A program made the translations under genes and the position numbers. A stretch of 64,000 bases of DNA from Cryobacterium sp. Lineage in GTDB: Bacteria; Actinomycetota; Actinomycetes; Actinomycetales; Microbacteriaceae. The stretch covers positions 18,791 through 82,790 of the forward strand of contig JAHBSS010000003.1 of the NCBI GenBank assembly GCA_019639015.1, read 5' to 3'. Numbering within the stretch: the first letter of the stretch is position 1; every line of letters starts with the position of its first letter. Under the pieces are notes generated by a model that worked only from the letters and a program-made list of their open reading frames with translations, did not search any database and was not told the origin of the DNA. Below, in pieces: positions 1,456-11,074 of the stretch.

Positions 1456-2889
1456 GTGGATTTCCAGTTCGAGCGTAGGCAACGAATCGCGATAATTGGC
1501 GGCGGCCCCGGTGGCTACGAAGCGGCGCTTACTGGAGCGCAACTCGGCGCCGAAGTGACCTTGGTTGAGCGAACTGGAGTCGGTGGGTCGGCGGTTCTAA
1601 CGGATGTTGTTCCATCCAAGACGCTAATTGCGACCGCAGAGGCGGCGAGTTCGATTAGCGAAGCCGCCGAACTTGGGGTGCAGTTTTTCGTGAAAGAGGA
1701 CGGCAAGGCATCCAAACCCGAAGTTGCCGTAATTCTTAAGGCCGTCAACACGAGACTGCTTGGGCTCGCCCAGAAGCAGTCCGAGGACATGCGCGGCGCC
1801 CTCGACCGAGCCGGCGTGAAAATAGTTACGGGTGATGGCCGGCTCGATGGAGTTCACAAGGTTGTGGTTTCAACAGGCACTGGTTCCAAGCGCACCGATT
1901 TCGAAACGATAGAAGCGGACACCGTTATCGTCTCGGTCGGCGCAAGCCCGAGAATGCTCGAATCTGCCATGCCCGACGGTGAACGCATCCTCACTTGGAC
2001 ACAGTTGTATTCCCTCGAATCGGTTCCCGAGCACCTCATCGTTGTTGGGTCGGGTGTTACCGGCGCCGAGTTCGCATCCGCCTACACCGCTTTGGGCGCG
2101 AAAGTCACCCTGATTTCGAGCCGTGACACCGTGCTCCCTGGCGAGGATGCCGATGCCGCAAAGGTCATAGAAACAGTCTTTAAACGCAATGGCATGACTG
2201 TGCTTTCTAAGTCGCGCGCCGAACGCGTCGAACGAACAGCCGACGGGGTGACCGCAACCCTCACCGACGGTCGCACGATTGAGGGTTCGCATTGCCTCAT
2301 GGCGGTTGGCTCGGTGCCGAACACTCGTGGACTCGGGCTTGAGGATGCCGGGGTGCAGCTCACAGCATCCGGCCACATCCGCGTGAATCGAGTTGCCCGC
2401 ACGTCAATGCCGTCGATTTATGCTGCTGGCGATTGCTCTGATTTTCTGCCGCTCGCTTCGGTCGCCTCGATGCAGGGTCGCACCGCGGTATTCCACGCGA
2501 TGGGGGATGTCGTAAACCCGACCGAGATTCGAAACGTGACCTCGAACATCTTCACTCAGCCCGAGATCGCGAGAGTCGGGTGGTCGCAAAAGCAAGTCGA
2601 GGACAAGGTCGTGCCGGGCCGCATCCACAAGATTCCGCTTTCGCAAAACCCGCGAGCAAAAATGCTCGGCATCAAGGATGGCTTCGTGAAACTCATTTCG
2701 AGTGTCGGCTCCGGCACCGTGATCGGCGGTGTCGTCGTGTCACCGAAAGCCTCGGAGCTGATTCTCCCCATTGCAATAGCAATCGAGCACCGCCTCACTG
2801 TCGACGAACTGGCCGAAGCCTTCAGCGTCTACCCGTCGCTCTCCGGTAGCATCACGGATGCCGCCCGAGCCATGCACATAGTCCGCTAG
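1456..2889 (+). CDS. lpdA: NAD(P)H-quinone dehydrogenase of the LpdA (Rv3303c-like) group, FAD flavoprotein
   Basis: 477 residues with the two-dinucleotide-binding-domain flavoprotein layout: FAD-binding GGGPGGYEAAL near residue 16, NAD(P)-binding VVGSGVTGAEFASAY near 196, the FAD motif YAAGDCS near 325 and a C-terminal dimerisation domain from about 350. At the position of the redox disulfide of lipoamide dehydrogenases the sequence reads GVGGSAVLTDVVPSK, with no cysteines. That is the signature of mycobacterial-type LpdA quinone reductases rather than E3 subunits. The GTG at 1456 fits the start of the FAD fold. AAGAAT 6 nt upstream could be a weak -10. It is monocistronic. Confidence 0.88.
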   Translation: MDFQFERRQRIAIIGGGPGGYEAALTGAQLGAEVTLVERTGVGGSAVLTDVVPSKTLIATAEAASSISEAAELGVQFFVKEDGKASKPEVAVILKAVNTRLLGLAQKQSEDMRGALDRAGVKIVTGDGRLDGVHKVVVSTGTGSKRTDFETIEADTVIVSVGASPRMLESAMPDGERILTWTQLYSLESVPEHLIVVGSGVTGAEFASAYTALGAKVTLISSRDTVLPGEDADAAKVIETVFKRNGMTVLSKSRAERVERTADGVTATLTDGRTIEGSHCLMAVGSVPNTRGLGLEDAGVQLTASGHIRVNRVARTSMPSIYAAGDCSDFLPLASVASMQGRTAVFHAMGDVVNPTEIRNVTSNIFTQPEIARVGWSQKQVEDKVVPGRIHKIPLSQNPRAKMLGIKDGFVKLISSVGSGTVIGGVVVSPKASELILPIAIAIEHRLTVDELAEAFSVYPSLSGSITDAARAMHIVR

Positions 2890-3048: not shown

Positions 3049-4305
3049 ATGCTTAAATCCAAAATTCAACGCATTCTCGCCTTTTCTTCCGCGGCTGCGA
3101 TTGCAACCGGTGGATTGGTGCTCGGCACAGCCACAGCGGCGTCCGCGGCAACAATAGCCGTCCCCGGCGACTATGCCACGATTCAACTCGCTGTTAACGC
3201 TGCTACTCCGGGCGACACGATTAATGTTGCCGCTGGTAGCTACACCGAAAACGTCAATATTCCGGCTGCCAAGAATCTGACTCTCACGGGTGCAGGCAGT
3301 GCCACAACGACCGTGACTGGCCGCCTCACTCTAGGTGCTGCAACAACAGTTTCCGGTTTTACACTTCAGGGCCAAACCGCGGCCCCTTACGCTCAAGATC
3401 CGATCTGGATTACAAGCACGGGTGCTGGCTCGATTGTTGAAAACAACGTGATTCAAAATGGCCTTCGCGGGGTTTACATCGATCACGCTGTCGGCACCTC
3501 GGCGTCTCACACAATTGTAAGAAACAACACAATTTCAGAGGCTGGATTTGGAAACACCGGGGCAGTCTGGATCGCCAGTTCAGACTATGTCGACGTATTG
3601 AACAATGTATTTGCGAACACAACAGCCGGTGGCGTCGGAGTGAACTTGGTGGGCGGTTCCTCAAACGTATTGATCGATCACAACTCGTTTGACAATTTCG
3701 GAAATGTCATGGTGCTCATCGCAAACTCGAGCGGATTCCCGAGTACGCCACAAGGACACGACGTTACGTTCTCAAATAACACAATTACGAACTCGACTGG
3801 AACGCCGTTATACATCGGTGGCAACAACTTGAAGGATGTTTCTATCCTCAACAACTCGATCACCGATACTGCAGGCGCATCCACAGCTGCGATCTTCATC
3901 ACCCCGGGATATTCACCAAGTTATGACCAGTGGTTAGAGCCGAGCAATAGGCCTTTGGAGGGATTTGTCATTGAAGGAAACTTGGTCGATAACGCGGCTT
4001 ACGGCGTGAATGTACGCTCAGGATCCCAGCTTGCGACGTCTGATGCAGTCCAAATCATTGAAAATAGGTTCTGCACTGTCAACGTTGCGGCGATCAACAA
4101 CACCAACACAACTTCGTTGCTAGCAATTGACAACGATTTCTGTGGATCTACCACGATTGGTCCGGTGGAAATCAGAAACACGCCAGTCCTTGCTAACACG
4201 GGAACTCAGGATGCGCTCCCACTCGGGCTCGGAGCGTTCGCGGTCCTCCTTCTTGGCTCCGCTCTAGTCTTCTGGCGCAAGCGAACCTCCACCCCTCGCC
4301 CCTAA
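3049..4305 (+). CDS. Secreted right-handed beta-helix protein with C-terminal LAxTG sortase anchor
   Basis: 418 residues. An N-terminal signal peptide (basic MLKSKIQR, hydrophobic stretch, cleavage near ASA-AT at about residue 35) is followed by about 330 residues of imperfect beta-helix repeats rich in N and I, such as NNVIQNG, NNTISEAG, NNVFANT and NNTITNS. These are typical of the pectate-lyase/NosD-like parallel beta-helix fold. The C-terminus has VLANTGTQ, a hydrophobic helix and the basic tail WRKRT, a complete wall-sorting signal. LAxTG is the motif known for class E sortases of high-GC Gram-positives. The protein is therefore predicted to be wall-linked. No catalytic residues could be assigned; polysaccharide binding or cleavage is possible but unproven. 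It has its own RBS (GGGAG) and its stop touches the repeat at 4305-4413. Confidence 0.85.
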   Translation: MLKSKIQRILAFSSAAAIATGGLVLGTATAASAATIAVPGDYATIQLAVNAATPGDTINVAAGSYTENVNIPAAKNLTLTGAGSATTTVTGRLTLGAATTVSGFTLQGQTAAPYAQDPIWITSTGAGSIVENNVIQNGLRGVYIDHAVGTSASHTIVRNNTISEAGFGNTGAVWIASSDYVDVLNNVFANTTAGGVGVNLVGGSSNVLIDHNSFDNFGNVMVLIANSSGFPSTPQGHDVTFSNNTITNSTGTPLYIGGNNLKDVSILNNSITDTAGASTAAIFITPGYSPSYDQWLEPSNRPLEGFVIEGNLVDNAAYGVNVRSGSQLATSDAVQIIENRFCTVNVAAINNTNTTSLLAIDNDFCGSTTIGPVEIRNTPVLANTGTQDALPLGLGAFAVLLLGSALVFWRKRTSTPRP

Positions 4306-4413
4306 CTTTCATCATTCAGGAGTTTGTGGTGCGGTTGTGACTATTGGGGCGGATGTTGTGCGATTTTGGCACTTTCGTCACACCCGCCACACCAACTCCT
4401 GAATGATGAAAGT
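4305..4413. repeat. Hairpin-forming inverted repeat, left of the DUF559 gene
   Basis: A perfect 20-bp inverted repeat (ACTTTCATCATTCAGGAGTT at 4305-4324 and its complement at 4394-4413) extends inward imperfectly for another 17 bp, 13 of which match, around a loop of about 35 bp. The outer ends are identical to those of the element at 5345-5451, while the interiors differ. It begins on the last base of the upstream stop codon. It may be a non-autonomous mobile element, a REP-like unit or a protein-binding site. Confidence 0.85.
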
Positions 4414-4469
4414 GCACAGGAGCGGGTGCGGGTGTGGAGTGGTAACGGGGGCGCGGGCATCATGGCTGG

Positions 4470-5441
4470 ATGCCAGAGCCAGTACAGATCATCGACTCGC
4501 TAGGCGGGATTGCCACTAGACAGCAGTTGATCTCTAAGGGGTGCAGCGGGTTCGACCTCACGATTGCGGTTCGCAAGGGGTTGATTCGTCGGGTAAGGCA
4601 AGCACGATATTCGACCCCCATTGCAAGCGCTGACGCGATAGCAGCGGCACGCGTCGGGGGTTTGCTCGCGGGCCCCAGCGCTGCGAAGAGTTACGGGTTT
4701 TGGTCGGGGCCGGATCGCAAGCTACACATTTCGATAGGCGTGAACAGTTCTAGGCTCCGAACGAACAAAGCGCCAAGCCTGAAACCTCTGCCACTTACCC
4801 CAGACCGTTTCGATCGCGAGGTGGTTTTGCATTGGCTGAAGGGCGGTGCAGTGCCTGAACGCGGGCCTGATTGTTGGCGGGTCGATCCGATCACGTGTTT
4901 GCGCCAGGTGATCGCCTGGTCGGATGCCGAAACAGCAGTCGCGTGCCTAGATTCTGCCCTAACAAAACTTCGCATCAGTTCGCGCAGGCTCGCGAACGAG
5001 TTCGTTGAGCCGACTATTCGCGAACAACTGATCCTGCAGACGTTGAGGCAGGGGAGTGATTCCGGACTCGAATCCATTGTTCGACAGCGCTTGGCGGCAT
5101 CCGGGATTGTTGTCGATCAACAAGTGAAGTTCCCGTTTGGACGAGTTGATATGCAGATTCCGGGTACGAAACTAATCATCGAAGTCGATGGCGAAAGTTT
5201 CCACGGTCTGGACCAAATCGAGACAGACCGTCGCCGAGATGCCGAACTTGTCGCACTTGGGTTTTCGGTCATCCGCCTTGGTTACACGCGAATCATGCAG
5301 GACTGGCCCGATTGCCTGCGCGTGATCCGATCCTCCCTCACGCGCTTTCATCATTCAGGAGTTTCTGTGACCAATGTTACGGATGTGACTGATGAGACCC
5401 CATTGGTCGCGAAACGGAACATCAGCCCCAAAAACTCCTGA
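4470..5441 (+). CDS. AbiEi-like N-terminal domain plus DUF559 (Vsr-like nuclease fold) protein
   Basis: 323 residues. Residues 1-60 (IDSLGGIATRQQLISKG, then VRKGLIRRVRQARYS) resemble the winged-helix N-terminal domain of type IV antitoxin AbiEi. Residues about 200-295 are a DUF559 domain of the Vsr/PD-(D/E)xK-like fold: FPFGRVDMQIPGTKLIIEVDG, then DRRRDAELVALGFSVIRLGY; the D and E-V-D pattern fits a nuclease core. The last about 30 residues are encoded by the inverted repeat at 5345-5451 and are not part of the domain. No clear RBS precedes the ATG at 4470. Such genes are common and often multicopy in Microbacteriaceae, and their function is unknown. DNA cleavage or repair is only inferred. 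The gene sits between two repeats with identical ends, which suggests that it may move or be maintained with them. Confidence 0.8.
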   Translation: MPEPVQIIDSLGGIATRQQLISKGCSGFDLTIAVRKGLIRRVRQARYSTPIASADAIAAARVGGLLAGPSAAKSYGFWSGPDRKLHISIGVNSSRLRTNKAPSLKPLPLTPDRFDREVVLHWLKGGAVPERGPDCWRVDPITCLRQVIAWSDAETAVACLDSALTKLRISSRRLANEFVEPTIREQLILQTLRQGSDSGLESIVRQRLAASGIVVDQQVKFPFGRVDMQIPGTKLIIEVDGESFHGLDQIETDRRRDAELVALGFSVIRLGYTRIMQDWPDCLRVIRSSLTRFHHSGVSVTNVTDVTDETPLVAKRNISPKNS

Positions 5442-5451
5442 ATGATGAAAG
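5345..5451. repeat. Hairpin-forming inverted repeat, right of the DUF559 gene
   Basis: Perfect 20-bp arms (CTTTCATCATTCAGGAGTTT at 5345-5364 and its complement at 5432-5451) enclose a loop of about 67 bp. Inside the loop GACCAATG occurs on both strands (5369-5376 and, inverted, about 5402-5409). The arms are the same as those of the element at 4305-4413. The element covers the 3' end of the DUF559 gene and stops 2 nt before the stop codon of the convergent carboxylase gene. Confidence 0.85.
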
Positions 5452-5453
5452 TG

Positions 5454-7199
5454 CTAGTCGAGGATGGTTAGGAGTTGGTGGCCCGAGGAGATTGTTGAGC
5501 CTACGGTCGCGTTCAGGTTTGTGACTACGCCGTCTTTGTGGGCAGTGATTGGTTGCTCCATTTTCATAGCCTCGAGTACGAGAACCAAATCGCCCTTCAC
5601 CACTTTGTCGCCTTCAGACACCGCAACTTTCACGATTGTTGCCTGCATTGGCGACTTGATCGAGTCTCCTGTCTCCGTCGAAACCGTTCCCGAAGCTCGA
5701 CGTTTCGGTGGGATGATCGCCGTCGATTGATCGCCGAGTAGCCGAGCAGGTAGCGAAACTTCAATCCGCTTTCCATCCACTTCTACAACAACGTTTTGCC
5801 GTTTCGCCGGGGCTGCGGCATCCGGCAGAGAACCCGACCAGGGTTCGATGTCGTTATAGAACTCGGTTTCGATCCACCGAGTGAACACTTTGAACGGTTC
5901 GGATGTGAAAGCTGGATCTCGCACGATCTTCCGGTGAAACGGCAACACAGTTGGTAATCCGGCAACCTCGAACTCGTCAAGAGCGCGCCTTGACCTTTCA
6001 AGCGCATCTTCGCGAGTTGACCCTGTGACTATGAGCTTTGCTAGCAGGGAGTCGAATGCCCCACCGATCACATCGCCGGTCGTTACACCACTATCGATCC
6101 GCACTCCCGGACCACCCGGGAACCGCAAGACGTTAACCGGGCCCGGTGTAGGCATGAAGTTCAATCCAGGGTCCTCACCGTTGATCCTGAACTCAATTGA
6201 ATGACCGCTGGGCACCGGGTCGTCAAAGTCGAGGAGTCCACCTTCGGCGATTCGAAACTGCTCTCGAACCAAGTCAATACCCGTGATCTCTTCGCTCACA
6301 GGATGCTCAACCTGAAGTCGTGTGTTTACCTCCAAGAACGAGACCGTACCATCGGATGCCAGCAGAAACTCACAAGTCCCCGAACCTATGTAACCGACTT
6401 CTTTGAGGATCGCTTTGGACGAAGTGTATAGAGCGTCGCGTTGCGAATCGGTCAGGAATGGTGCCGGAGCCTCTTCCACAAGCTTTTGGTGCCGCCGCTG
6501 CAAAGAACAGTCGCGGGTTGAGACAACAACAACTTTGCCGCTCTTGTCAGCCAGGCACTGAGTTTCGACGTGCCTCGGCCGATCAAGATACTTCTCAACG
6601 AAACACTCGCCTCGCCCGAACGCAGCGATAGCTTCACGGGTTGCTGATTCGAAGAGTTCTGGAATCTCCTCACGGGTTCGTGCGATTTTCAGCCCGCGGC
6701 CGCCCCCACCAAATGCCGCTTTGATTGCAACCGGCAATCCGAACTCATCAACAAACTTAAGAACTTCCGATGCGTCAGCTACGGGATTTAGAGTGCCGGG
6801 CGCAAGCGGCGCTCCCACCTTCTCCGCGACATGCCGGGCCGATACTTTATCGCCAAGCCGTTCAATGGACTCCGGAGGTGGCCCGATCCAAATCAGTCCC
6901 GCGTTGATGACAGCCCGTGCAAACTCCGCATTCTCTGCAAGGAACCCGTAACCAGGGTGCACTGCGTTCGCTTCTGAACGCCTAGCGATGGAAAGTACTT
7001 TGTCGATTACCAGGTAGGTTTCCGCGCTCGTCGTTCCTTCTAGAGCGTATGCTTCGTCGGCTAACCTCACATGGCGGGCGTCTCGATCCTGGTCGGCGTA
7101 AATTGCGACGGTGGAGATTCCGGCATCCTTTGCGGCCCTGATTATTCGAACTGCGATCTCACCACGGTTGGCAATCAGGACCTTGGAAATTCGAGCCAT
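5454..7199 (-). CDS. Acyl-CoA carboxylase alpha chain: biotin carboxylase fused to biotin carboxyl carrier protein
   Basis: 581 residues in the actinobacterial AccA3-type order: biotin-carboxylase N domain ([20 protein letters not shown] at the start), ATP-grasp domain (about 115-310, with the GGGGRGLK glycine loop and [16 protein letters not shown]), C-terminal carboxylase domain to about 440, a linker, and a biotinyl domain ending the protein. The biotin-accepting lysine is K546 in EAMKMEQP. It carboxylates biotin with bicarbonate and ATP and serves acetyl- and propionyl-CoA carboxylases. The beta and epsilon chains are encoded at 14.5-16.4 kb and the biotin ligase at 22 kb, not next to it. 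TAGGCT 8 nt before the ATG suggests a leaderless or nearly leaderless mRNA. Which acyl-CoA is used depends on the beta chain. Confidence 0.95.
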
Positions 7200-9172: not shown

Positions 9173-11074
9173 TTACCAGCTTCCGCCACCACCGCCTCCG
9201 CCACCTCCGCCTCCGCCTCCACCACTGCCCCCACTCGAGCCAGGGGTGGAAGAGAACGAAGTAGTGGCCATACTGCTGAATGAATTCACAGCCGAACCAA
9301 TTGAGGCCAGAGATGATATCCCGCCGGAGACCATGCCCGCTTGGAATCCTGAACTACCGACATACCAATCGGTGTCTGGCTGGATGTTGTGCTCGGCAAA
9401 TAGTTTCGCAAACACTTTGGACCAGCGATCGGCTTCACCAAACACCATCGCCCATGGAAGGTAGCGAGCGAAAATATCCTCGGCTTCTTCGAACCGAATT
9501 TGGTCGGCCTCAGCAGTCGAGATGTAAAGTTTGAATCCTTCCAGTTGCAAGAACACAGCGTGGCCCAGCGCGGACCGTCGAATCAATTTATGCGCTTGCA
9601 TCGCAGTTGCTACCAATCCAACATCAAGCCCAATTATCGGAATCAAGATTGGTAGAGCCAGTGAGGATGCCAATACAAAACCAAGCACACCAAGCATGAA
9701 TCCCCAAGTCACGACTGTATTTGCGCTCTTTAGCTTGTCTCGGAAATAACCCTGGTGTTCCATCCAAGTGTCGAGAGCTTTTTGGATCGCTTTCATGTCG
9801 CTTGCGAACGTGTTGGTTAGTTCAGAGAGTTTTATGTCGTTGTCGCCATACGAGAACAGCTTGCTCATCATCAACTGTTCGTGTGCCATTAGAGGCTTAA
9901 GCGTGATTCCCCTGTTTGCTGCACCCGCTTGCTTCTTTTCGAATCGCTCAGGAGTCCTGACAAGCCGGTAGTCTTTGGCCTTGTTTTTGTTACCGCCTTC
10001 GATCTCGTCGATCCTCAAATAGCCGCGCACAGCCAGATCAACAAGGGTTGCAACGGTGTCGGAGTTGGTTCGCTTTTTCTTTAGGATCGTGGTCGCAGCT
10101 CCGACCGGGAGGTCGTCTGGAGGTTGGAATCTTACGACTACGGGTTCGGATTCGTTGACATCCACAATCTGGGCAGTCTTCGTATCCGTCGGGATTTCTC
10201 CCGGTGTGACCCCAGCAAATTTCTGATCGCGTCTGGCGAATTTTGCATAGCCGAGCAATCCCAGAGGAGGGCCAAACAAGAGGACGAGTCCTGTGCCCCA
10301 ATTCCACGGACTGAAGAACGGATTTGGTCCATCATTTGATCCAGTGACGATTGGCACATAGTCGTAAGGAAGGCTTGGTTCCAGTATTGGAGCAACGTTG
10401 CTGAAGGTGCCCGCGTTCCAGCTCACCCGAACCGTAAGCCCTTGACGAGTGAGCAGTGTGTCCTGTTTGAACTCCGCCGTATTGCCTGAAGTTGCGCTGG
10501 AATCGCACGGATCCATGGTGCCGTCAAACCCTGCGTAGCAAACCGCCGCCGAGACTGCACTTGGTCCGGTAACAGTTACCTTTGTGTTCTCGATGAACGG
10601 GTCCCAGTAGCTTCCGGTTGCGTTCCAGTAGAACTCATCGACTTTGGTGCCGTCGTCCTTGGTGTAACTATTTATTGCGCCAAGGATGTCGTACTTGATG
10701 ACGTAGGTTTGCGTGCCCGAAACATTGGCATTCTTGTTACCGATTCGGATTTGAAGGGCGTTCCCGAGTGTTTGGGTGTTCAGGGCGCTCGCACCAGTTG
10801 GGCTTGAAGTCTTGACGTTCTCGATCTTGTAGACCCGATCAAGGTCTGGTTGGTCTGTCTGGAAGCGGGATGCTAAAAACCGGTCGATCCCGTGGCGGTC
10901 CTCTGATCCACCAAAGTCGTACTTGATTGTTTCCGTGACGTGGACGGTGCCGTTTGCGTCGATCTTGTATTGAATGTCAAAACCTTCAATAGTCTCGGGT
11001 CCGCTACTGCAACCGGTGAGGAACAACAAGCCAATGAACCCTATTGCGACAAGTTTCATCACCCGTGAAATCAT
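9173..11074 (-). CDS. DUF2207-domain membrane lipoprotein with polyglycine C-terminus
   Basis: 633 residues. The N-terminus has a lipoprotein signal with lipobox LTGC (C at about residue 22). Residues about 30-230 form the extracellular DUF2207 beta-sandwich (HVTETIKYDFGGSEDRHGIDR). A membrane segment lies at about 255-280 (FFSPWNWGTGLVLLFGPPLG), a cytoplasmic part follows, and a second hydrophobic hairpin at about 460-500 (VVTWGFMLGVLGFVLASS...). The tail is serine-rich and ends in GGSGG followed by about 14 glycines and SW, which is characteristic of this family. The function of DUF2207 proteins is unknown. The gene is convergent with the methyltransferase and divergent from the response regulator. 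Confidence 0.85.
   Translation of the reverse strand: MISRVMKLVAIGFIGLLFLTGCSSGPETIEGFDIQYKIDANGTVHVTETIKYDFGGSEDRHGIDRFLASRFQTDQPDLDRVYKIENVKTSSPTGASALNTQTLGNALQIRIGNKNANVSGTQTYVIKYDILGAINSYTKDDGTKVDEFYWNATGSYWDPFIENTKVTVTGPSAVSAAVCYAGFDGTMDPCDSSATSGNTAEFKQDTLLTRQGLTVRVSWNAGTFSNVAPILEPSLPYDYVPIVTGSNDGPNPFFSPWNWGTGLVLLFGPPLGLLGYAKFARRDQKFAGVTPGEIPTDTKTAQIVDVNESEPVVVRFQPPDDLPVGAATTILKKKRTNSDTVATLVDLAVRGYLRIDEIEGGNKNKAKDYRLVRTPERFEKKQAGAANRGITLKPLMAHEQLMMSKLFSYGDNDIKLSELTNTFASDMKAIQKALDTWMEHQGYFRDKLKSANTVVTWGFMLGVLGFVLASSLALPILIPIIGLDVGLVATAMQAHKLIRRSALGHAVFLQLEGFKLYISTAEADQIRFEEAEDIFARYLPWAMVFGEADRWSKVFAKLFAEHNIQPDTDWYVGSSGFQAGMVSGGISSLASIGSAVNSFSSMATTSFSSTPGSSGGSGGGGGGGGGGGGGGSW

Follow-up and report, generated by a model that had tools for sequence, protein, structure and literature searches.

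A probable nuclease gene of DUF559 type, flanked by its own dispersed inverted repeats, hints at a new kind of pairing between enzyme and repeat

Excerpts of two reports describe REPtrons as stable, mostly single-copy genes flanked by their own repeat family, the repeat being private to each gene, with sometimes several per genome, and dispersed in intergenic DNA, often as inverted pairs (PMC6006769, PMC8266576). Part of a further source outlines TIRtrons, in which terminal inverted repeats stand on both sides of a RAYT, and CGTC REPs, which lack a dedicated transposase (PMC3733652). Also, an excerpt on AbiEi reports 11-bp inverted repeats, separated by 27 bp, that are bound by this protein in its own promoter (PMC3985639).

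The window analysed here, a 64-kb stretch of Cryobacterium sp. DNA, contains a gene with a 323-residue frame (4470–5441, plus strand) between two unstranded elements of about 107–109 bp, element 1 (4305–4413) and element 2 (5345–5451), each with inverted arms of 19–20 bp. The arm CTTTCATCATTCAGGAGTT has four exact matches, at 4306–4324 (+) and 4394–4412 (−) in element 1 and at 5345–5363 (+) and 5433–5451 (−) in element 2, and no further site with up to 3 mismatches was found in the window (shuffle mean, 0.01). The interior is variable, that of element 2 being unlike that of element 1, so that the description in the first-pass annotation of shared ends and differing interiors is borne out. Both elements are imperfect inverted repeats, with arms of 37 and 40 nt and 89% and 83% complementarity, respectively; the predicted fold of element 1 reaches −57.9 kcal/mol with RNA parameters, and an Rfam scan of the window gave no match. 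The locus is marked on one side by a conserved lpd-like gene (1456–2889, plus strand), presumably dihydrolipoamide dehydrogenase, and on the opposite side by a conserved accC-like biotin carboxylase gene (5454–7199, minus strand). Between lpd and element 1 lies a beta-helix gene (3049–4305, plus strand), also found in genome G007, whose stop codon abuts element 1.

The product of the bracketed gene matches DUF559 above the curated Pfam cut-off and MTES_1575 just below it. Its orthologues are 60, 55 and 56% identical, and three of them stop opposite residue ~292, so the conserved protein ends near 5345 and the last ~31 codons of the open frame, whose 3′ end element 2 overlaps, are element sequence. 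A Foldseek search with the protein model (mean pLDDT 56) retrieved 3hrl and 3r3p (TM-scores by target, 0.77 and 0.74), Vsr 1cw0 (0.45) and, poorly superposed, AbiEi 6y8q (0.31); a profile search gave 3hrl at E 5e-8 and 3r3p at E 5e-5. Residues D227, E238, D240, H245 and D253 are invariant across 30/30 aligned homologues, and an AbiEi_4 match at E ≤0.01 occurs in 15 of 30 homologues. These matches point to an AbiEi-like N-terminal winged helix and a C-terminal Vsr-type fold with predicted catalytic residues in this family, whose members would be probable DNA-cutting enzymes. The nuclease-like fold first ascribed to this DUF559/AbiEi gene thus agrees with both the Pfam and the structural matches. 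Annotations of such genes often go no further than a hypothetical protein, a domain of unknown function or a solitary antitoxin.

The arrangement extends to other loci. The same inverted arm pair stands on both sides of the gene at 30 of 48 homologous loci (a set that leaves out L348, L352 and L161) and at none of 114 control genes, and so the link between gene and repeat drawn in the first-pass annotation holds beyond the window. At least three 12-mers are common to both flanks at 33/45 loci compared with 0/116 controls, and at least one at 37/45 compared with 9/116, orthologues in these counts being non-independent samples. A common flanking arm is absent in 6 of the 45 homologues, five of them from one genus. 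One homologue harvest gave loci at 30 of 47 places, and in another 5 of 7 matches were read. At the Arthrobacter and Tsukamurella loci, flanking repeats occur at 4 of the 5 read, one of these being weak. Outside the 45-locus set, L287 has arrays, L285 shares three 12-mers between flanks without an evident arm pair, and no arm was found at L286. L284 is weak. Nothing was seen at the weaker PF18741 matches L145, L157, L159, L163, L166 and L169, whose gene ends were guessed and which are uncounted. The impression that most other DUF559 genes are unflanked came from searching with the window's arm only; on de novo comparison of flanks, most carry other arms. Genes of this probable nuclease family therefore mostly sit between inverted repeat copies in the genomes examined. 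Left and right elements differ in length by 0–2 bp in 21 of 30 cases, the remaining differences being 11, 12, 12, 12, 13, 13, 20, 28 and 35 bp.

Many unlike arms bracket members of this one protein family, and many of them share AGGA or CGGAG by eye. The arm differs by lineage and tracks the protein rather than the genome. For example, none of 16 same-genome paralogue pairs has arm words in common, whereas in cross-genus comparisons at 50% protein identity or more, 17 of 27 pairs do. With rising identity, cross-genus sharing runs from 1/225 (<32%) through 10/238, 3/153, 11/81 and 11/30 to the 17/27 of the top class. A permutation test of arm against protein gave 45.6, compared with a null of 35.4 and a maximum of 38.7 in 500 permutations. 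The arm is thus tied to the protein rather than placed at random with respect to DUF559 genes. The gene may, however, pass on together with its flanks, and such linked inheritance could explain part of this co-variation, which by itself is no proof of recognition; here too, orthologues count as non-independent samples.

Moreover, the repeats are dispersed. In the genome of the window, 17 sites match the arm when 2 mismatches are allowed (control with the reversed pattern, 0); they make up 8 elements with two arms and one lone arm. Of these nine sites, 5 lie between codirectional genes, 2 between divergent genes (presumably the guaB-like and tilS/ppa sites) and 1 between convergent genes; the ninth, at a contig end, is unclear. 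TTCATYATTCAGGAG has 18–131 matches in six genomes, this one included (control, 0). Among 398 genomes, GTTCAYAAAACAGGAG has 16 and 19 copies in two genomes with a gene that it brackets and 1 copy in each of six others, and GTTTCTCCGGAGGWTT reaches 88 and 19 in the pair of genomes whose gene it brackets; these two arms are thus abundant only in those four genomes and in one orphan genome. The Arthrobacter elements occupy 13, 24+20 and 6+6 places, and a search of 72,556 records found them in no strain but their own. In random own-genome stretches of 20–60 kb, copies were present for 5 of 25 arm-genome combinations and absent for 20, and the same 25 combinations run against 280–380 kb of other genomes gave 1–2 matches in 4. 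Tandem arrays of arms are also observed. An IMG/VR scan gave one match, taken as chance.

Copies of the repeat without the gene, which were expected from the resemblance to REP/RAYT, do exist. The window's arm has 30 matches in G003 and 37 in G006, and the orthologous gene was found in neither, the G006 contig ending at accC. Orphan repeat families are known in REPtron systems too. GTTTCTCCGGAGG is an orphan repeat in G155; since 13 copies of GTTTCTCCGGAGGWTT occur there, a bracketed gene was expected, but the prediction of a gene flanked by GTTTCTCCGGAGG failed, with no homologue in 7 copy-bearing stretches and other arms at the 3 homologues of that genome. Syntenic sites differ between close relatives. 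When the 7 remaining G000 element sites were looked for in the sampled G007 DNA, three turned up; G007 has no element at tilS-ppa (clean) or glyA-folD (rough alignment) and is unalignable, with similar length, at the third. Between G003 and G006, sites vary in presence and even in repeat family. At the G000/G007 and G003/G006 sites compared, neither a duplicated target site nor a precise boundary is visible.

The distances from arm to arm recur with a period of about 10.4 bp (67 non-redundant elements, all of one arm family; R 0.70; null maximum, 0.45 in 2000). The best period is 9.6 for the window's genus alone, and 11.1 for a second arm family from 20 partly redundant lengths. This result is not based on left and right lengths, because their equality says little about phasing. 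The periodicity suggests that the arms probably serve as double-stranded DNA contacted from a single face of the helix, and so, of the earlier proposal that a protein recognises hairpin ends, the pairing of gene and repeat stands and duplex binding is favoured over recognition of a hairpin.

Based on these observations, we consider likely a two-part system that pairs a nuclease gene with short repeats of a family private to it. In this system, the AbiEi-like winged helix would recognise the ~14–20 bp arm in duplex DNA, and at least two protomers would occupy arms in inverted pairs or tandem arrays which, being spaced by whole helical turns, would place them on the same side. The Vsr/homing-endonuclease-like domain would then nick or cut the DNA within the occupied element or next to it, and repair or recombination of the cut would copy, swap or remove elements. 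In this way the repeat would spread through intergenic DNA, whereas the gene would keep its home locus between copies of its own repeat. That the protein binds its arm is very probable and that it cleaves DNA is probable; that it drives the spread of the repeat is only slightly favoured.

An operator model, where an AbiEi-type regulator uses gene-side arms for autoregulation and dispersed arms to regulate or insulate, with the nuclease as a relic or a defence function and no protein-driven mobilisation, is unlikely, although it has attractive points: AbiEi represses the promoter in which it binds inverted repeats, according to part of the source (PMC3985639), helical phasing and tandem arrays fit cooperative binding, and the gene has retained a single locus in 21 of 30 loci. 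However, arms lie downstream as well as upstream of the gene, only two of the nine own-genome sites are divergent, the nuclease residues are invariant, and close relatives differ in the presence and repeat family of their sites. An ordinary MITE, in which an unrelated transposase mobilises the arms as terminal inverted repeats and the DUF559 gene hitchhikes between two copies, would account for the size of the elements, their inverted ends, the scattered copies and syntenic presence or absence. Nonetheless, the arm tracks the DUF559 protein across genera, unlike arms bracket one protein family, target-site duplications were not seen at the sites compared, and element length varies in ~10-bp steps, which makes this reading very improbable; the genome-wide transposase search covered the Y1 type. 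Even less credible are RNA-level hairpins acting as terminators or mRNA stabilisers. The strong predicted fold agrees with them, as does the position of elements in CAN_BIN33 and M. senii, often 3′ of stop codons by eye among the contexts listed; yet two own-genome sites lie between divergent gene starts, the arm sequence is conserved beyond mere pairing, helical phasing is meaningless for RNA, and a terminator scan made no call at either element, though it allowed loops of 3–8 only.

The proposed two-part system resembles a REPtron in its workings without belonging to that class. As in REPtrons, a gene, here of DUF559 type, sits between members of a dispersed repeat family that is private to each gene; in contrast, the protein combines a winged helix with a Vsr-like nuclease instead of an HUH/Y1 transposase, and the spacing keeps step with the turns of the DNA helix. 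A search of 11 genomes for RAYT (PF01797) found none, the control search being positive in 5 of 14 reference genomes, so the first-pass view of something like REP/RAYT with a different protein family is sustained. For the independent fold and GT[AG]G foot of a REP unit, the arms were judged by eye: a single one has no internal palindrome, and many share AGGA or CGGAG. TIRtrons and CGTC REPs, as far as the excerpt describes them, share inverted-repeat-flanked genes and dispersed palindromes without a known enzyme, and differ in motifs and, for TIRtrons, also in enzyme. The winged helix, with its weak match to 6y8q, recalls the AbiEi antitoxin of the type IV AbiE system, and the spaced inverted repeats reported for AbiEi in that excerpt count as a likeness to the arms; the differences are the C-terminal nuclease domain, the genome-dispersed repeats and the absence of an AbiEii (DUF1814) toxin gene beside the window gene, whose neighbours are the beta-helix and biotin carboxylase genes. 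Nuclease fold and sequence profile resemble Vsr repair endonuclease and the homing endonuclease I-Bth0305I, from which the AbiEi-type winged helix and the cognate dispersed repeat set the family apart.

Finally, that such repeat systems, selfish or domesticated, are widespread in Actinomycetota, each AbiEi-wHTH/Vsr-like nuclease binding and cutting its own phased duplex repeat and thereby copying it into new intergenic sites, seems to us an evenly balanced proposition. If true, this would set beside RAYT/REP a counterpart akin to homing endonucleases, built on an unrelated enzyme whose chemistry involves duplex DNA instead of single strands. The private pairing offers a testable substrate for each DUF559/AbiEi-type protein and could supply the enzyme for some palindromic repeat families without RAYT. 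Moreover, repeat-plus-caretaker systems could here have arisen independently for a second time, and the many naturally matched pairs of DNA site and nuclease could serve the study of recognition and co-evolution.

The DUF559/MTES_1575 gene (4470-5441, forward strand) stands alone between two imperfect inverted repeats of about 107-109 bp, element 1 at 4305-4413 and element 2 at 5345-5451, whose outer arms of 19-20 bp are identical (CTTTCATCATTCAGGAGTT) and whose interiors are unlike, just as the first-pass annotation had described; four exact copies of the arm are present in the 64-kb window, against 0.01 expected. The frame has no stop before element 2 and continues into it (5345-5441), and its last ~31 codons are repeat-encoded, because three orthologues end opposite window residue ~292. 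Elsewhere in the window (9173-11074), a long open frame, presumably DUF2207-like, has a terminal poly-glycine tail, its antisense frame being poly-proline.

In the own genome, G000 (1.88 Mb in 94 contigs, 87.9% complete), 17 matches to the arm are found with at most two mismatches, and none for a reversed-pattern control, the 17 giving eight elements with two arms and one lone arm. Of the nine sites, seven have no PF18741 gene beside them, and the neighbours of the sites presumably include guaB-like, glyA-folD, cmk-der and tilS-ppa pairs. A PF18741 search of 11 genomes matched 38 places, of which 30 loci were read; just four of these have the arm nearby (at most two mismatches), a single locus apiece in G000, the related genome G002, CAN_BIN33 and Marisediminicola senii, and at every one of the four the gene is bracketed by it. 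Whether the arm occurs alone or beside DUF559 genes, a question raised by the first-pass annotation, has the answer that it does both.

The arm is present in 5 of 99 related genomes, the own included (at most one mismatch), all five of the same genus, the remaining four members of which have 0 to 3 matches (at most three mismatches). An exact scan of the genome contig collection returned 65 stretches, 54 in this group (Cryobacterium sp. ACE_ACT7 13, CAN_BIN33 17, the CALMSL MAG 11, the JAFKIY MAG 7, M. senii 5, Lacisediminihabitans 1); the other 11 are from unrelated bacteria, each of these with a single match. Core-arm counts (at most one mismatch) are 18 in G000, 53 in G002, 30 in G003, 37 in G006, 131 in CAN_BIN33, 71 in M. 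senii and 3 in Lacisediminihabitans, the control giving 0 in all seven; among the matches listed, the arms of CAN_BIN33 and M. senii often form tandem arrays either side of a centre. On contig C13 of both G003 and G006 (L044 and L042), a gene that we take to be M20-peptidase-like has a single arm on one side and a two-armed element on the other, probably by chance proximity.

The four arm-bracketed genes are orthologues, 55-64% identical, that share a syntenic position flanked by accC and lpd. At this locus, accC directly adjoins lpd in G005, neither the gene nor lpd is found within 7.5 kb in G003, and the contig of G006 stops at accC. Moreover, G001, G004 and G007, relatives without the window's element, carry another gene there (L201, L202 and L199 among the loci), mutually homologous, not significantly similar to the window protein (best E 0.019), and resembling AbiEi solely through a sub-threshold Pfam match in one. 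This gene, too, carries repeat words of its own at either end, those on the right lying inside the end of the frame in G004.

At E 1e-45, a profile of the four proteins matched 47 places in 44 of 398 family genomes, from which 30 loci were returned and their left and right flanks compared without presupposing any arm. Arms particular to the lineage lie on both sides of most of these loci, 21 of which adjoin accC and/or lpd, the other nine being located elsewhere. Among 19 homologues (E 1e-8, six genomes picked for their arms), 15 have clear arms of their own, L284 a weak one and L287 arrays, and no flanking arm is evident by flank comparison at L285 and L286. The L287 gene (G311, contig C3, 190145-190942) is a low-scoring homologue, flanked left and right by arrays of AGCGCGGTGCGC and AGCGCGGGTCTCCGGAG palindromes. 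In the window's genus, eight paralogue loci all have arms of their own; the own genome contributes one, on contig C16, with arm GTTCGYAATTCAGGCAAA.

In counts that include close relatives and are thus not independent, at least three 12-mers are shared between the 400-bp flanks at 33/45 loci versus 0/116 control genes (200-450 aa, from twenty stretches of 20 kb picked arbitrarily in 11 of these genomes), and at least one at 37/45 versus 9/116; mononucleotide-shuffled flanks share three in 6/900. A more demanding criterion, that each flank contain an inverted pair of one common word with a single mismatch tolerated, selects 30 of 48 loci (the 45 and L349-L351) versus 0 of 114 controls, so that flanking inverted repeats do recur at DUF559-type genes elsewhere, as a link between gene and repeats predicts. 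Twelve of the 45 fall short of three shared 12-mers: five have arms by shorter words (L226, L227, L245, L248, L282), L284 has its weak arm, and six (five of genus g5, and L236) have no flanking arm by flank comparison.

No arm word is common to both members of any of the 16 same-genome paralogue pairs among the 45 loci, and cross-genus arm sharing rises with protein identity, from 1/225 pairs below 32% through 10/238, 3/153, 11/81 and 11/30 to 17/27 at 50% or above. For example, GAAATGCAGGA is common to genera g1, g33 and g105, and CCAAATGAAGG to g1 and g105. The mean identity of arm-sharing pairs is 45.6, compared with 35.4 for permuted arm sets (maximum 38.7 in 500). Linked descent of gene and flanks would contribute to this sharing, because many close cross-genus pairs are accC-lpd orthologues, and for this reason our confidence in a nuclease-repeat system is slightly lowered, to that of a reasonably probable reading.

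Other arms are dispersed as well. GTTCAYAAAACAGGAG has 16 copies in G035 and 19 in G151, the two genomes with a gene bracketed by it, and one mismatched match in each of six others (398 searched). GTTTCTCCGGAGGWTT has 88 copies in G237 and 19 in G282, both with a gene so bracketed, 13 in G155, where no gene found bears it, and 1-2 in 21 other genomes (398 searched). A homologous gene is absent from twenty 3.5-8 kb loci around such copies, which are therefore solo. Of the further arms sought in random stretches of their own genomes, three are there as two-armed copies and two as single copies, 20 of 25 arm-genome combinations being without a copy. At L256 (G237, contig C85, 80355-80921), four GTTTCTCCGGAGG arm copies are spaced 183-184 bp, a local tandem amplification. 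Outside the family, five of seven plasmid-collection matches were read, four with flanking repeats (L348 weakly) and L352 with none. The gene-flanking element of one Arthrobacter record is in 13 places there, and those of another strain, on two replicons, in 24+20 and 6+6 places; the Arthrobacter elements are in no other record of the 72,556 searched. The Tsukamurella element is in nine places, eight in seven Tsukamurella records and one in a Streptomyces record.

A comparison of G003 with G006 at sites whose flanks are 93-97% identical reveals a window-type element in G006 at one site; in G003 another palindrome stands there, immediately behind the same stop codon. The arm of this G003 palindrome is common to the repeats on both sides of the L161 gene (G003, contig C10, L161:1438-2337, reverse strand), a more distant PF18741 match (26.3 bits, below cut-off) with two nearly perfect ~60-bp palindromes around it (GCGAAACCGCAGTTTCTGC..., about 1375-1437 and 2413-2473). 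At a second site a CCCAAATGAAGG element is present in G006 only, and two of three located G000 sites are without element in G007. The element boundaries are too inexact to name the mechanism of turnover. Also, 12-mers of the L161 arm appear again at L288:12529 and L200:4593.

For innermost inverted pairs of the window's arm family (interiors non-redundant over five genome groups), outer lengths cluster near 75, 85, 95, 104, 116, 126, 137, 146 and 157 bp. The best period in a 5-20 bp scan is 10.4 bp (R 0.70, n = 67; maximum 0.45 in 2000 jittered sets), staying at 10.3-10.5 when any single genome group is omitted; taken alone, the window's genus (33 elements) gives a best fit at 9.6 (R 0.71, with R 0.64 at 10.5), and best periods of small groups spread from 9.5 to 10.4. 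Tandem spacings, homologous arrays included, are 31-34, 42-44, 54-56 and 62-66 in this family and 21-22, once 44, in another. Since the period nearly equals the helical pitch of duplex DNA, the natural reading of the spacing is that protomers would bind on one face of the helix. The resemblance to REP/RAYT systems proposed in the first-pass annotation holds for a gene amid its own dispersed repeats, whereas the single-strand hairpin recognition of RAYTs is less likely here, given this helical spacing. REPtrons are treated in the available parts of PMC6006769, PMC8266576 and PMC3733652, and AbiEi operators in that of PMC3985639.

Regarding the protein, D227, E238, D240, H245 and D253 are invariant in 30 aligned homologues, E201 being nearly so, and Pfam at E 0.01 assigns MTES_1575 to 30/30, DUF559 to 27/30 and AbiEi_4 to 15/30. 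In sequence comparison the profile hits two structures, 3hrl at E 5e-8 and, at E 5e-5, 3r3p, which is the homing endonuclease I-Bth0305I. The structure model is modest (mean pLDDT 56, the first 50 and last 90 residues mostly 63-87), with TM-scores by target of 0.77 to 3hrl, 0.74 to 3r3p and 0.45 to Vsr 1cw0 (E 0.03); AbiEi 6y8q gives the best E (1.6e-4), yet a poor superposition (0.31). The available part of PMC3710099 describes MTES_1575 as a Vsr-type REase, that of PMC12907096 concerns VsrA, and that of PMC1189080 does not mention DUF559 by name.

A search of the open-access PMC literature, bioRxiv preprints and most subscription papers lying outside it, returned no report of DUF559, MTES_1575 or AbiEi genes joined to dispersed flanking repeats. 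The association between gene and repeats is strong; the enzymology is inferred. As far as this literature goes, the nuclease-repeat system is undescribed; it is real and recurrent, and the accC-lpd locus looks as if it were a standing home for such gene-repeat systems.
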